Positions 6,579 through 22,130 of a DNA stretch of 61,189 bases are shown piece by piece. This DNA comes from Faecalicoccus acidiformans (GTDB lineage Bacteria > Bacillota_I > Bacilli_A > Erysipelotrichales > Erysipelotrichaceae). Position numbers and translations under genes: made by a program. The notes beneath the pieces are model-generated. The model made no database searches. It was not told the DNA's origin and saw only the letters and a program-made list of their open reading frames with translations. Within the stretch, counting starts at the first letter, position 1. The number at the start of each line of letters is the position of its first letter. The stretch spans positions 1-61,189 of the forward strand of contig NZ_JACHHD010000014.1 of assembly GCF_014202635.1 (NCBI RefSeq), in the 5' to 3' direction.

Positions 6579-8090
6579 ATGGCGAAGTTTCTTAAAGAAC
6601 CATCTCGAACTTTTAGTGAGTATTTATTGATTCCGGGTTATACATCCGAAGATTGTATCCCGGACAATGTCGATCTGTCGACGCCGTTAGTCAAATATAA
6701 AAAAGGAGAGCAACCTTCTCTGCATTTGAACATCCCTATGGTTTCTGCCGTCATGCAGGCGGTCAGCGGTGAAGAGATGGCTTGCGCTTTGGCCCGTGAA
6801 GGAGGCGTGAGCTTCATCTATGGATCACAGTCCATTGAATCACAGGCCGCCATGGTCCGCAAAGTCAAGGCGACCAAATCCGGATTTACAGGCAGCGATT
6901 CCAATGTCAGTCCAGATGCTACATTGGCTGATGTTTTGGCTTTGAAAGAGAAAACAGGACATTCTACGATGGCTGTGACTGAAAATGGAGAAGCAGATGG
7001 AAAACTGGTGGGAATCGTAACAAGCCGCGACTATCGTGTGAGCCGTATGGATCTTTCTACACCGGTAAAAGAATTTATGACGCCATTTGAAAAATTGATC
7101 GTAGGCAAAGAAGATATTTCATTGAGTGAAGCCAACGACCTGATTTGGGATCATAAACTCAACCAGCTGCCCATCGTCGATGAGAATCAAAGACTGAAAG
7201 CGTTTGTGTTCCGTAAGGACTATGCCAGCCATAAAGATAATCCGAAAGAATTGTTAGATGAACAAAAACGTTATATCGTAGGAGCCGGGATCAATACTCG
7301 TGACTATGAACAGCGTGTTCCTGCCTTAGTCGAAGCCGGTGTCGACATTCTCTGCATCGATTCCAGCGAAGGCTATTCTTGCTGGCAAGCAAAGACGTTA
7401 CAATGGATCCGAGAAAAGTATGGCGATACAGTCAAAGTGGGAGCGGGGAATGTTGTTGATGAAGATGGATTCCGCTTCTTGGCAGAAGCCGGGGCGGATT
7501 TTGTGAAGATCGGAATCGGTGGCGGTTCCATCTGTATTACTCGTGAACAAAAAGGAATTGGCCGCGGGCAAGCGACTGCAACCCTTGATGTAGCTCGTGC
7601 GCGCGATAAATATTTTGAGGAAACTGGAGTGTATATCCCTATTTGCAGTGACGGGGGGATCGTACATGATTACCACATCACATTGGCTTTGGCCTTCGGG
7701 GCGGATTTTGTGATGTTAGGGCGTTATTTTGCGCGCTTTAAAGAAGCACCAAACAACCTTGTATCCATTAATGGAAACTATATGAAAGAATATTGGGGCG
7801 AAGGAAGTGCCCGTGCTCGTAACTGGCAGCGTTATGATGTCGGTGGCGAAGGCAAGATGAGTTTTGTCGAAGGGGTGGATTCCTATGTGCCATATGCAGG
7901 AACACTGCATGAAAACGTAGGTTTGACTTTGTCGAAGATTTCGCATACCATGTGCAACTGCGGGTGCTTAAGCATTCCGGATCTGCAAAAAAATGCCAAA
8001 GTCACACTTGTCTCCAGCACCAGTATCGTAGAGGGCGGAGCTCACGATGTTGTAGTTCGAGACGAGAGTTTTGATGCCAAACCGCATTAG
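6579..8090 (+). CDS. guaB: IMP dehydrogenase with CBS domains
   Basis: Oxidises IMP to XMP with NAD+, the committed step to GTP. It is 503 residues with a CBS pair around 95-220 inside the barrel. The active-site loop is [12 protein letters not shown] instead of the common GxGPGSICTTR, and the mobile flap carries RARNWQRYD. Both match, from memory, the enzyme of the protozoan Tritrichomonas foetus, which is also 503 residues. AGGAGG precedes the ATG and a strong terminator follows, so the gene is monocistronic. Confidence 0.96.
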
Positions 8091-8094
8091 ATCT

Positions 8095-8119
8095 AAAAAA
8101 GGGCGAGAGCCCTTTTTTT
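8095..8119 (+). terminator. Intrinsic terminator after guaB
   Basis: Hairpin AAAGGGC GAGA GCCCTTT followed by T's. Confidence 0.85.
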
Positions 8120-8145
8120 GTATGGATGCACTTTCAGGGGGAGTT

Positions 8146-8160
8146 TGTTATAATGGGGGC
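8146..8160 (+). promoter_or_regulatory. Extended -10 promoter directly before the ATG
   Basis: TGTTATAAT (TATAAT at 8149-8154) is a consensus extended -10 element. Only 6 bases separate it from the ATG at 8161, so the message should start at the start codon. No good -35 box is seen, as is common for extended -10 promoters. Confidence 0.6.
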
Positions 8161-9309
8161 ATGAATGAGTCGAACAGTACCGATCTTTTATTGGACATCA
8201 GTATTCTTTATCGAAGTACCCAAAAATATTATGATAAAATGCTTCAATCGTTATCTTTGACTTATGCACAATTGCCGATCTTGATTCTGATCTATGAGCA
8301 TGAAGGGATATCGTTACAACAGATTGCTTATGAAGGCGGCTATGATAAAGGAACGATCACTAAACAAGTCCAGAAGCTGCAGGAAACGGGCTATATCCGT
8401 GTCCAGTCTTCGAAGCGGGATAAGCGTGCCAAAGAGCTTTATACAACACAGAAGGCGCGTTCGATCATGAATAAGATCTACGGCATACGGGCATCCTGGT
8501 GGCAACATATCAGTGCTTCGATCCCGGAAGAGGATATGCAGAAGTTTTCGACCTTTTATAAGACTATGGTGGTTTCTGCTCGGGAATTTGCACAAAAGGA
8601 TCAGGAGGATATCGTTTTTTTCGATCATCAGAAATTGAATGTCGAGATCGATCCTGGAAAAATGTCGACGATCGTCTGGACTGGAGGCTGCAATTTTCGC
8701 TGTCCTTTCTGTGATCGCAGCCGGTTTATTTTCTTGAAAGAAGATTCTCGTGTAATTACCGGGGCAAAGATCCTCCAATATTTAAAAAAACGACAAAACG
8801 TTTTAGATCAGTTGGTGATCACTGGCGGAGAGCCTTTGATGCATGCACAGCTGGATCCTTTTTTGCGGGAAGCTAAAAAGATGGGGTATCAAATCCGGAT
8901 AGAGACCAACGGATCGTATCCTCAACATCTGCAAGATCTGATCAAAGCAAAATTGGTCGATCAAGTGGTCATGTCTTTAAAAAACACACCAGAAAAATAT
9001 GGACAATCGATAGGGGTAGGTCAAACGGAGATCCAAAAGATCCAAAGATCGGTTGATATTTTATTGCACTGTGATTTGGATGTGCGCTTTACGATCCTTC
9101 CCATTAAAGAGTTTCATTCGCAAAAGGATCTGATCGAAATGATTTCTTGGCTAAAAGATGCTGCTTCTATCGAGCTGCGGACATACCATGAATCTATGGA
9201 ATCGATTCAAAAAGATTTGCATGGGTATACTTATCAAGAGTTACAAAGTCTATTACCGAAACTTCAAGAAATTACACCTAATATCAAACTAAAGGGGGGA
9301 TCTTTGTGA
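8161..9309 (+). CDS. MarR-type HTH domain fused to NrdG-like radical SAM activase
   Basis: A 382-residue two-domain protein. Residues 1-150 read as a MarR-family winged helix: a helical dimer arm, the recognition region YDKGTITKQVQKL and a wing SSKRDKRAKELY. Residues 160-382 are a radical SAM domain with the cluster motif CNFRCPFC (Cys177, 181, 184) and the SAM-binding GGEP, as in activators of anaerobic ribonucleotide reductase. It overlaps the downstream glycyl radical gene by 4 bases, so its activase half most likely serves that protein. The fusion is unusual: normal NrdG has no DNA-binding domain. The start at 8161 follows an extended -10 box with no ribosome site; the frame is also open upstream, but those residues would lie in the guaB terminator. 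Confidence 0.85.
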   Translation: MNESNSTDLLLDISILYRSTQKYYDKMLQSLSLTYAQLPILILIYEHEGISLQQIAYEGGYDKGTITKQVQKLQETGYIRVQSSKRDKRAKELYTTQKARSIMNKIYGIRASWWQHISASIPEEDMQKFSTFYKTMVVSAREFAQKDQEDIVFFDHQKLNVEIDPGKMSTIVWTGGCNFRCPFCDRSRFIFLKEDSRVITGAKILQYLKKRQNVLDQLVITGGEPLMHAQLDPFLREAKKMGYQIRIETNGSYPQHLQDLIKAKLVDQVVMSLKNTPEKYGQSIGVGQTEIQKIQRSVDILLHCDLDVRFTILPIKEFHSQKDLIEMISWLKDAASIELRTYHESMESIQKDLHGYTYQELQSLLPKLQEITPNIKLKGGSL

Positions 9310-11324
9310 AAGTTGAAAAACGAGATGGTACGATCGTTGATTTTGATATGACCAAGATCATTCATGCGATCCAAAAAGCGTTTGATTCTTGTAAGATCAC
9401 ATCGGATCCTCAGATCTTTGAATTACTGGTCTTGCGGGTAAGTGCAGATTTCCAGCCGAAGATCCAAAATGGGATCGTCTCGGTGGAGGATATTCAGGAT
9501 AGTGTTGAACGGATTCTTTCTCAATCCGGCTACATACAAGTTGCCAAATCTTATATCTTGTATCGTAAACAGCGGGAAAATGTACGGCGTATTGAAAATA
9601 CTACACTAGATTATAAAAACATCGTCGATAGTTATTTGAATGATACTGAACGTACGCACCAAAGTGATCAACCTTCCTTGTATTCCGTCGGAGGACTGAT
9701 CTTATCGAATTCAGGAGCCATCACGCGAAATTACTGGATGAGTGAAGTCTATGATGAACCCATTGAAAAAGCGCACGACAGCGGAATGATCCATATTCAC
9801 GATCTTGATATGTTGACAGGAGACAGTGCCAGCTGGAGCTTGTTGTCGCTGATCCAAAAAGGAATCAAGACTCAGCCGGGACAGATTGTTTCTCGTCCGG
9901 CCAAACACTTGATGACCTTGTGCAACCAAATGGTCAATGTATTAGGAATCTTGCAGAATGAATGGGCGGGGGCTCAAAGCTTTTCAGGATTTGATACGTA
10001 TTTGGCACCTTACATCCGCAAGGATTGCTTGGATCGTCTGGAAGTAAAAAAGGCTTTGGAAGCCTTTATTTATGGAGTTAATATTCCTTCGCGATGGGGA
10101 TCGCAAACTCCCTTTGGCAATGTTTTGTTTGATATGAAAGTTCCTGCGGATTTGGTCAGTAAAAAGGCTTGGATCGGCAACCAGCAGTTGGACTTTACTT
10201 ATGGAGATTGTCAGGAAGAGATGAAATTACTGCAAGATGTCTTCTTTGAAATCTTGTGTGAAGGAGATGAAGCGGGAAATGGATTTCCATTTCCGATTCC
10301 GACTGTGATGATTCAGGATGACTTTGATTTTGAAAATGAAAGGTACCAAAACATTTTTCGCTGTGCCGGGAAATATGGTTCCGTTTATTTTGTTCATCAA
10401 GATTTGGAAAACGATCATCGAAAGGTCGATGAACACCTATGGAATCAAAAGCCGGGATTTTATACTTATACGGAAAATTCAGGGAGCATTGGAACCGTCA
10501 CCATCAATTTGGTGCGCTTGGCCTATCTCGCAAAAGACGAAGCAGATTTTTTCAGACAGCTGCAAGAAATCCTGGAGCTTTCTTGCCGGTCTTTACAAAT
10601 AAAAAGACAAGTCTTGAATAAGCTTTTCAAAAGTGGATTGTATCCTTGTAGCGCCCAGTTCATCTCTAATTTAGATTCGCATTTTTCAACGATTGGAATC
10701 GTCGGCATGAACGAGGTGGGACTCAATGCTGCCTGGCTGGGCAAAGATATGTCTGATCCGGATACACAGGCTTTTGCGGTCCGAGTTCTGGATTTTATTC
10801 GTCAACATTTGATTCTTCAACAAGAAAAGACACATTGTCTTTATAATTTAGAGGCGACGCCGGCTGAGAGTGTTTCGGTCCGCTTTGCGGCTAAAGACCA
10901 TGAATTGTATCCCGATATGCCGACCAGTTCCATCGAACGTTATACGAATTCCACCCAGCTCCCATTAGAAAATGAAGAAGATTTGTTCACATCTTTGGAG
11001 ATCCAACAAAAAATTCAAAAATTTTACAATGGAGGCACTTATTTTTCGATTGTTTTAATGCAGGAAATTGAGGATTGGAAGGCGGTTCGCTCTTTGGTTC
11101 AAACGATTATTCGATCCTTTTCATTATATGATTTTGTTTTTTCTCCTGTTTATTCGGTCTGTCCGGAACATGGCTATCAGAAAGGGCAGGTACTTCGTTG
11201 TCCTCAATGCCAGAAAGAATGTACCATCTGGACCCGTTTGGCAGGATATTATCATCCGTTTCCGGCATCAAAGATCCAAAATCATGCGGAGATTTTTAAA
11301 CAGAATCCTTTTGATATCGATTAG
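9306..11324 (+). CDS. NrdD-like glycyl radical protein lacking the usual catalytic cysteines
   Basis: A 672-residue homologue of class III ribonucleoside-triphosphate reductase: ATP-cone at residues 1-90, NrdD core with HIHDLD, LQNEWAGAQSF, PSRWGSQTPF and HFSTIGIVGMNE, a C-terminal zinc site (CPEHG and CPQC), and the glycyl-radical motif RLAGYY (Gly647). Two expected features differ. The conserved YCAGWSL reads DSASWSL, so Ser174 replaces Cys, and the stretch before GSIGTVTI (371-391) lacks the MCCRL-type cysteine segment of the Thermotoga-like branch. It may not reduce ribonucleotides in the normal way. The GTG start overlaps the activase gene and follows AAAGGGGGGA. Confidence 0.85.
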   Translation: MKVEKRDGTIVDFDMTKIIHAIQKAFDSCKITSDPQIFELLVLRVSADFQPKIQNGIVSVEDIQDSVERILSQSGYIQVAKSYILYRKQRENVRRIENTTLDYKNIVDSYLNDTERTHQSDQPSLYSVGGLILSNSGAITRNYWMSEVYDEPIEKAHDSGMIHIHDLDMLTGDSASWSLLSLIQKGIKTQPGQIVSRPAKHLMTLCNQMVNVLGILQNEWAGAQSFSGFDTYLAPYIRKDCLDRLEVKKALEAFIYGVNIPSRWGSQTPFGNVLFDMKVPADLVSKKAWIGNQQLDFTYGDCQEEMKLLQDVFFEILCEGDEAGNGFPFPIPTVMIQDDFDFENERYQNIFRCAGKYGSVYFVHQDLENDHRKVDEHLWNQKPGFYTYTENSGSIGTVTINLVRLAYLAKDEADFFRQLQEILELSCRSLQIKRQVLNKLFKSGLYPCSAQFISNLDSHFSTIGIVGMNEVGLNAAWLGKDMSDPDTQAFAVRVLDFIRQHLILQQEKTHCLYNLEATPAESVSVRFAAKDHELYPDMPTSSIERYTNSTQLPLENEEDLFTSLEIQQKIQKFYNGGTYFSIVLMQEIEDWKAVRSLVQTIIRSFSLYDFVFSPVYSVCPEHGYQKGQVLRCPQCQKECTIWTRLAGYYHPFPASKIQNHAEIFKQNPFDID

Positions 11325-21674: not shown

Positions 21675-22130
21675 ATGGAGTTTACAGAAGCTAAAAAAAT
21701 CATGGATGAAAAACTGGGAGATTGGAAAATCATGGCACTGGCTAGTTGCGTAGACAACTATCCAATGGTGCGAAATGTTAGTTGTATTTTTTACAACGAT
21801 AAGATCTATTTTAAAACGGATAAAAATTTTAGAAAAACACAGCAGCTATTCAAAAATGCTCAAGTTGCAATGTGCTTTAATGGTGTACAGGTAGAAGGAA
21901 AAGCTATAAATAAAGGGTTAGTTGTTGATGAACCGGGAAAAGTTTTTGAAAAGAAATATAAAGAATTTTTGTGGCAGAGTTACAATGCCTATTCACATGA
22001 GGATACGGAAATTTTAATTGAAGTGACTCCAGAATTTGTCGAAATCTGGGATGAAGATGAAAATCGTAATGCATTTCAATTGTTTATAGATTTTAGGAAT
22101 CGCAGTGTCGAATATAAGCCTTATGATTAA
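21675..22130 (+). CDS. PNPOx-like FMN-binding split-barrel protein
   Basis: A 151-residue protein of the pyridoxamine-phosphate-oxidase-like split barrel, typical of small FMN-binding proteins. The pattern KIMALASCVDNYPMVRNVS, YFKTDKNFRKTQQL and AQVAMCF fits the family. The exact reaction is unknown. Co-transcription with RibU behind an FMN riboswitch supports flavin binding. AAGGAGGAA precedes the ATG. Confidence 0.85.
   Translation: MEFTEAKKIMDEKLGDWKIMALASCVDNYPMVRNVSCIFYNDKIYFKTDKNFRKTQQLFKNAQVAMCFNGVQVEGKAINKGLVVDEPGKVFEKKYKEFLWQSYNAYSHEDTEILIEVTPEFVEIWDEDENRNAFQLFIDFRNRSVEYKPYD

Follow-up and report, generated by a model that had tools for sequence, protein, structure and literature searches.

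What does a bacterium do with an anaerobic ribonucleotide reductase that has lost the cysteines on which its catalysis depends? This question is raised by a locus of Faecalicoccus acidiformans, located on the 61,189-nucleotide stretch of contig NZ_JACHHD010000014.1 that was analysed as a whole and is referred to here as the window. The locus encodes a 672-residue NrdD-like protein, preceded by a gene in which a MarR DNA-binding domain is fused to a radical S-adenosylmethionine (SAM) activase of the NrdG2 type. Comparative genomics suggests that this dead class III reductase and the MarR-radical-SAM fusion quite probably constitute a two-part transcription regulator of the functional nrdD-nrdG pair situated at G000:C2 in the same genome.

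The identity of the 672-residue protein was established by profile searches. NF006126/PRK08270 matches it with 754 bits (cut-off 548), Pfam ATP-cone and NRDD are both over the cut-off, and the zinc site and the RxxGYY glycyl-radical motif (RLAGYY, G647) are kept, in agreement with the full-length architecture described in an earlier note on this DNA. The best Foldseek matches of its modest structural model (predicted local distance difference test, pLDDT, 67.6; predicted template modelling score, pTM, 0.62; pLDDT below 50 over residues 362-392, the finger-loop region) are NrdD structures, with a top E-value of 8.4e-24. The loss of the catalytic cysteines claimed in the earlier note is borne out. 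The conserved active-site cysteine, Cys125 in the NrdD of Thermotoga maritima, is replaced by S174, and the columns Y173 and C174 are nearly invariant in alignment A2 (the window protein and 32 relatives). Additionally, RSMCCRL is absent ahead of GSIGTVTI, which removes the thiyl-radical cysteine and the SCCR/MCCR motif. The C-terminal tail is also gone; in relatives this tail is a glutaredoxin domain (PF00462, in the one relative scanned). According to the T. maritima study, the motif reads SCCR in NrdDh and MCCR in NrdDh4, and the residues whose mutation inactivates the enzyme are those deleted in the window protein (PMC4493059). No compensating conserved cysteine was found in the group alignments A1 (18 rows) and A2 (33 rows). 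The only invariant cysteines of A1 are C302, C619, C632, and C635, and C302 is invariant among the cysteine-complete relatives of A2 as well. The alternatives C427 (RSLQIKR region) and C448 (GLYPC region), the kind of residue that could have overturned the claim by taking the active-site position, were rejected along with others as unconserved in the group. Judged by its sequence, the protein is a relative of the NrdDh4-type anaerobic reductases without any catalytic cysteine, and it is probably incapable of reductase chemistry by the known mechanism.

The possibility that it is nonetheless the sole reductase of its genome was rejected, as PF13597 detects a second nrdD. This is the cysteine-complete gene that the earlier note had proposed to look for: a 724-residue NrdD (NF006732, 943 bits) is followed by a 173-residue NrdG (TIGR02491, 182 bits). 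A class I/II large subunit (PF02867) was not found in the window genome.

Relatives of the protein are widely spread in the order, matches at E<=1e-30 being present in 174 of 315 genomes. The residue-level census covered 155 family rows, a subset of these genomes. CCR is kept in 129 rows, and the remainder consists of the window and 25 further loci; with five more remnants, the total rises to 31 distinct MCCR-less loci in 31 genomes, termed dead loci here. With so many loci, chance or sequencing error does not explain the missing motif. Such cysteine-less proteins occur in many genera, and the frame is open in all four genomes of the window genus. The MarR-radical-SAM fusion adjoins the NrdD-like gene at every dead locus (31/31), and it neighbours 40 of the 129 CCR rows, some of whose loci are clipped. 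The redoxin-like tail is present in 121 of the 129 CCR rows and in none of the dead rows. Furthermore, the glycyl motif is kept in 20 dead loci and lost in 11, while the SAM cluster motif (CxxxCxxC) is kept in 28 and lost in three (L062, L252, L253).

The dead loci can be arranged in a graded series of decay, every member of which sits behind a MarR-radical-SAM gene. In the first step, proteins of 652-686 residues lack the cysteines and retain the glycyl motif; in the second, the glycyl domain is gone and about 645 residues are left (G091, G125). Shorter remnants follow with 617 (G153), 606 (G134), 571 (G036), 508 and 511 (G033, G089), and 501 residues (G270, G271). The shortest measure 381 and 373 residues (G208, G209), and in these Pfam detects the ATP-cone alone.

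This decay is accompanied by strong purifying selection, which the substitution patterns place increasingly on the ATP-cone rather than on the catalytic core. Between the window gene and that of the congener G001, the nonsynonymous rate (dN) is 0.044, the synonymous rate (dS) 1.35, and their ratio (omega) 0.033; the high dS makes all omega values rough. Beyond the ATP-cone (Table 1), omega is 0.012 for residues 96-250, 0.041 for 251-390, 0.030 for 391-610, and 0.110, the highest of the protein, for the glycyl/zinc end at 611-672. In the fusion gene, the linker and SAM part reaches 0.094 against 0.016 for the MarR domain, and the functional nrdD of the window genome stands at 0.005 in the same comparison. 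Remnant pairs remain constrained as well, with omega of 0.072 for G033/G089 and 0.115 for G270/G271. In G208 and G209 the ATP-cones are 90.5% identical and the remaining parts 44% and 33%. Among pairs that we chose for a comparison of segment identities, the ATP-cone has the highest identity, or lies within 0.02 of the highest, in 11 of 11 dead pairs, and in all seven cysteine-complete pairs it ranks last, alone or tied, among the six long segments. Four residues of the cone, K5, R6, Y86, and R94, are present in all 31 dead members, and R90 in 26, with His in the other five. From our alignment, these positions correspond to K7, R8, Y83, R87, and R91, given as nucleotide contacts of Prevotella copri NrdD (PMC11226230).

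The partner protein offers the second part of the argument. On TIGR02495 it scores 146.2 bits (cut-off 131.15), Pfam MarR and Radical_SAM are both matched, and in its structural model (pLDDT 82.4) one part matches MarR structures and the other radical-SAM structures. It thus fits the NrdG2 activase profile and carries a CxxxCxxC motif, and it may install a glycyl radical. The earlier note was right about the neighbouring activase and overlooked the fused MarR domain, which is the key to function. In cysteine-complete relatives, a palindrome of the form GTTG-N6-CAAC, in most cases TTAGTTG-N6-CAACTAA, is found about 30-85 bp ahead of the MarR domain. This putative operator, known from comparative genomics, has a perfect core in the congener G002 and in most cysteine-complete relatives; it is kept in the dead pairs L035, L038/L040, L049, L062, L074, L077, and L078, and is gone in strongly reduced pairs. 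With a MarR domain and, in relatives, a palindrome at its own promoter, the partner has the marks of a MarR-family regulator.

A genome search located the same palindrome, TAGTTG-N6-CAACTA, directly upstream of the functional nrdD. For a test of this association, 79 non-h4 nrdD loci were taken from the window genome, its relatives, and genomes added for their dead pairs, and each was scored by its best match within the 900 bp ahead of the NRDD domain. A palindrome with at most one mismatch precedes nrdD at 29 of 37 loci from genomes with the pair versus 1 of 42 without it (Fisher p 2.9e-13, with relatedness not fully removed). When the added genomes are left out, the counts in our table are 16 of 23 versus 1 of 42, and within family f2 alone the palindrome occurs in 6 of 7 versus 0 of 16 genomes (p 7e-5). 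The single pair-less locus with the palindrome belongs to G018, a genome that itself carries a MarR-radical-SAM gene cut by the contig end, with a palindrome ahead of it. The position before nrdD is nearly constant, and two genomes with the same nrdD subtype and no pair (G006, G031) have no palindrome. A non-h4 nrdD is present in 27 of the 31 dead-pair genomes, and the palindrome precedes it in all 27 (26 exact; one mismatch in G208). Two further genomes, G106 and G127, hold a cysteine-complete NrdDh4 with a MarR-less NrdG (L276, L277), preceded by GGTTGGATTTCCAACC of the type GGTTG-N6-CAACC, and a dead MarR pair elsewhere in the same genome, which gives the impression that enzyme and regulator separated after a duplication. 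No such palindrome was found in the genome search of G134, and no further NRDD in the draft genome of G225. An additional exact match in the window genome, at window positions 21743-21760, lies inside an open reading frame and was taken as chance. In a group without the pair (g74), the exact palindrome was observed in 5 of 5 sampled genomes (L341-L345); in the two that were read, it lies between two open reading frames without assigned function.

MarR domains bind palindromes of this type, and ATP-cones bind ATP and dATP. On this basis, the MarR domain would bind the palindrome that begins 45 bp ahead of the functional nrdD's ATG, while the NrdD-derived partner would read the nucleotide state (ATP versus dATP) through its ATP-cone and signal to the fusion protein through the old reductase-activase contact. 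DNA binding by the fusion would thus follow the supply of DNA precursors, and the pair would fill the role that belongs to NrdR in other bacteria. Physical contact, nucleotide binding and sensing are inferred, as are the sign of the control (repression, not activation) and the direction of the response. A glycyl radical may still be formed in the window protein and report anaerobiosis as a further input, one that is dispensable in sister lineages. The sensory role suggested in the earlier note is strongly favoured by these comparisons.

Several observations weigh against the regulator interpretation. The pair's own operator is decayed in the window, and 8 of the 37 pair-bearing loci lack the palindrome in the association test. 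Among these eight, the site of G144 is perfect but its locus was clipped, the nrdD of G009 and G027 is of another type, and in G007, G013, and G035 the expected position holds near-palindromic variants; no such explanation applies to G017 and G053. Moreover, the palindrome is not clearly commoner genome-wide than a reversed-pattern control. Genome-wide enrichment was therefore dropped as evidence, and only the position before nrdD is counted. The palindrome also appears, as TAGTTGCGCACGCAACTA, at the promoter of a MarR-ABC transporter in group g8 (L335-L339), which points to other MarR proteins sharing this operator type. A full-length MarR-radical-SAM match was obtained in 2 of 80 genomes searched from the 141 without an NrdD-like match, namely G018 and G100; the gene in G100 (G100:C12:49511-50632; L393, L404) has no NrdD-like open reading frame beside it, and is possibly the last stage of the decay series. 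It adjoins a glycosidase-like open reading frame. Additionally, NrdR is missing in members of the order with and without the pair. None of the 315 genomes of the order has a match to its profile TIGR00244 above the cut-off (9 of 14 control genomes do), the weak matches that could be placed coincide with reductase ATP-cones, and the profile is not among the 13 NCBIfam families matched by the window protein at E<=0.001. Since pair-less members also lack NrdR, the pair is not a general NrdR replacement in the order, and something else must operate in genomes without it.

The history of the pair is likewise read differently by two trees. In a tree of the N-terminal part of NrdD, the 31 dead rows all fall on one side (support 94), which would suggest a single origin and speaks against repeated conversion; it was a quick tree that gave warnings of long branches meeting. 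The tree of 71 MarR-radical-SAM proteins contradicts it, with six changes between complete and dead partners, at least five of them forced by the starred branches, and 0% of 200 bootstrap trees giving the dead members one common origin. Independent decay with several losses is preferred, though not as a final verdict, because in the latter tree no long end branches were flagged, and G036 and the g31 cases fall beside their own relatives.

Among the alternatives to a two-part regulator, the one that survives best, though unlikely, is that the MarR-radical-SAM protein regulates alone and the NrdD-like protein is an inert operon passenger being slowly lost. The shrinking partners and the partnerless gene of G100 would fit this, but the low omega over 672 codons and even over the 508-residue remnants, the ATP-cone preserved alone in G208/G209, the four cone residues shared by all dead members, and the unbroken adjacency of the two genes do not. 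Quite unlikely is a protein that uses its glycyl radical for other chemistry or in a redox role, for which the fused activase would make the radical and the MarR domain would sense its loss in oxygen. The glycyl and cluster motifs kept in most dead members are consistent with it; however, no parts change faster in the window genus than the glycyl/zinc end and the SAM part, and the pair is kept in the 11 members without a glycyl site and the three without a cluster motif. The other chemistry considered in the earlier note is thus unsupported. A reductase that still works, either through another cysteine or by direct use of the glycyl radical, is highly improbable. It could draw on the glycyl motif, zinc site, and neighbouring activase motif kept in the window, and on the T. 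maritima NrdD, reported to be active with no cysteine in the crystal active site (PMC4493059). However, residues essential in that enzyme are deleted here together with the conserved Tyr-Cys pair, no new conserved cysteine has arisen, the redoxin tail is lost, a complete nrdD-nrdG exists in the same genome, and relatives without the glycyl site keep the gene pair. A decaying pseudogene, to which the lost catalytic parts and own operator might point, is barely conceivable and was rejected, like chance, by the omega of 0.033, the frame open throughout the genus, and the similar proteins in many genera.

The two-part regulator proposed here combines features of several known systems. It resembles NrdDh4-type class III reductases (NF006126/PRK08270), of whose wider NrdDh group the T. 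maritima NrdD is the member with a solved structure, in its NRDD barrel, zinc site, and glycyl motif, and it shares with cysteine-complete NrdDh4 relatives the ATP-cone and the neighbouring NrdG2-type activase. Unlike these enzymes, the window protein has no Tyr-Cys pair, MCCR loop, or glutaredoxin tail, and selection has shifted to the ATP-cone. NrdR is an ATP-cone repressor of ribonucleotide reductase genes. The pair is similar in its ATP-cone as presumed sensor and in a putative operator before nrd genes, which is present in the window genome and by comparison would belong to the MarR partner. Its DNA binding, however, is assigned to a MarR domain on a second protein instead of a zinc ribbon, and the operator differs; the general properties of NrdR are in part those given in PMC11226230. 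As in MarR-family repressors, there is a winged helix, a Pfam MarR match, and a palindrome near promoters, whereas the fusion to a radical-SAM activase is different and an ATP-cone partner would take the place of a small ligand of its own. Trigger enzymes such as PutA, BirA, and NadR are metabolic enzymes that also control transcription of their own pathway. In contrast to these, catalysis has been lost here, probably several times, while control stays, and the components are a reductase together with its activase. No description of a fusion between MarR and NrdG, or of a dead NrdD serving as a regulator, was found in a literature search that covered titles and the beginnings of abstracts, with most subscription journals outside it.

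Table 1. Positions of the features discussed; coordinates refer to the window unless a contig is named.
Feature	Position	Strand	Remarks
IMP dehydrogenase-like gene (presumed), upstream neighbour	6579..8090	+	
Decayed putative MarR operator at the pair's own promoter, GGATGCACTTTCAGGG	8124..8139	+	relatives: GTTG-N6-CAAC
MarR-radical-SAM (NrdG2-type activase) fusion gene	8161..9309	+	likely ATG at 8161; reading frame open from TTG 8071
MarR winged-helix domain, residues 1-125	8161..8535	+	omega 0.016 vs congener G001
Radical-SAM cluster motif CNFRCPFC (CxxxCxxC type)	8689..8712	+	
NrdD-like protein without catalytic cysteines, 672 residues	9306..11324	+	GTG start; 4 bp overlap with the fusion gene
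ATP-cone, residues 1-95	9306..9590	+	omega 0.018; K5, R6, Y86, R90, R94 kept
D173-S174 in place of the expected Tyr-Cys pair (Tyr124-Cys125 of T. maritima NrdD)	9822..9827	+	
Residues 364-383, at the place of RSMCCRLRLDLREL in relatives (deleted and replaced here)	10395..10454	+	
Zinc-type site C619, H622, C632, C635	11160..11210	+	kept
Glycyl-radical residue G647 in RLAGYY (R644-L-A-G647-Y-Y)	11244..11246	+	kept
Palindrome before the functional nrdD of the window genome, TAGTTGAACCTTCAACTA	G000:C2:67876-67893		starts 45 bp ahead of ATG

The surroundings of the pair show some further features. The gene directly upstream, whose product we take from its sequence to be IMP dehydrogenase-like, has counterparts directly upstream of many dead pairs (in addition to the window, L033-L036, L038, L040, L049, L068, L070, L071, L074, L077, L078, L255, and L256), and such a neighbour was not seen beside cysteine-complete pairs in the comparison of upstream regions; a link with purine supply is possible. 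Read by eye, window positions 8095-8160 contain a GC hairpin and a T run after this gene. A TATAAT at 8149-8154 lies only 6 bases ahead of the ATG at 8161, and thus the MarR-radical-SAM mRNA may be leaderless.

The regulator interpretation gives a function to proteins annotated as anaerobic ribonucleoside-triphosphate reductases that would be incapable of reduction by the known mechanism, and warns that matches to NF006126, a family at equivalog level, include dead proteins. It names an operator and a target operon, and proposes a control of DNA-precursor supply in part of an order without detectable NrdR. In a wider view towards which we lean, a reductase and its activase would have become, repeatedly and independently, a dedicated transcription regulator that senses nucleotides and controls the remaining reductase, standing in for NrdR in part of the Erysipelotrichaceae-like order, with all stages kept from the enzyme pair to an ATP-cone beside MarR. 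The ancestral cysteine-complete MarR-NrdG/NrdD operon would then have been a trigger enzyme, in which the reductase reported its allosteric state to its own promoter. The graded series suggests that the ATP-cone is the part of a reductase sufficient for sensing, and thereby a route from enzyme to transcription factor.

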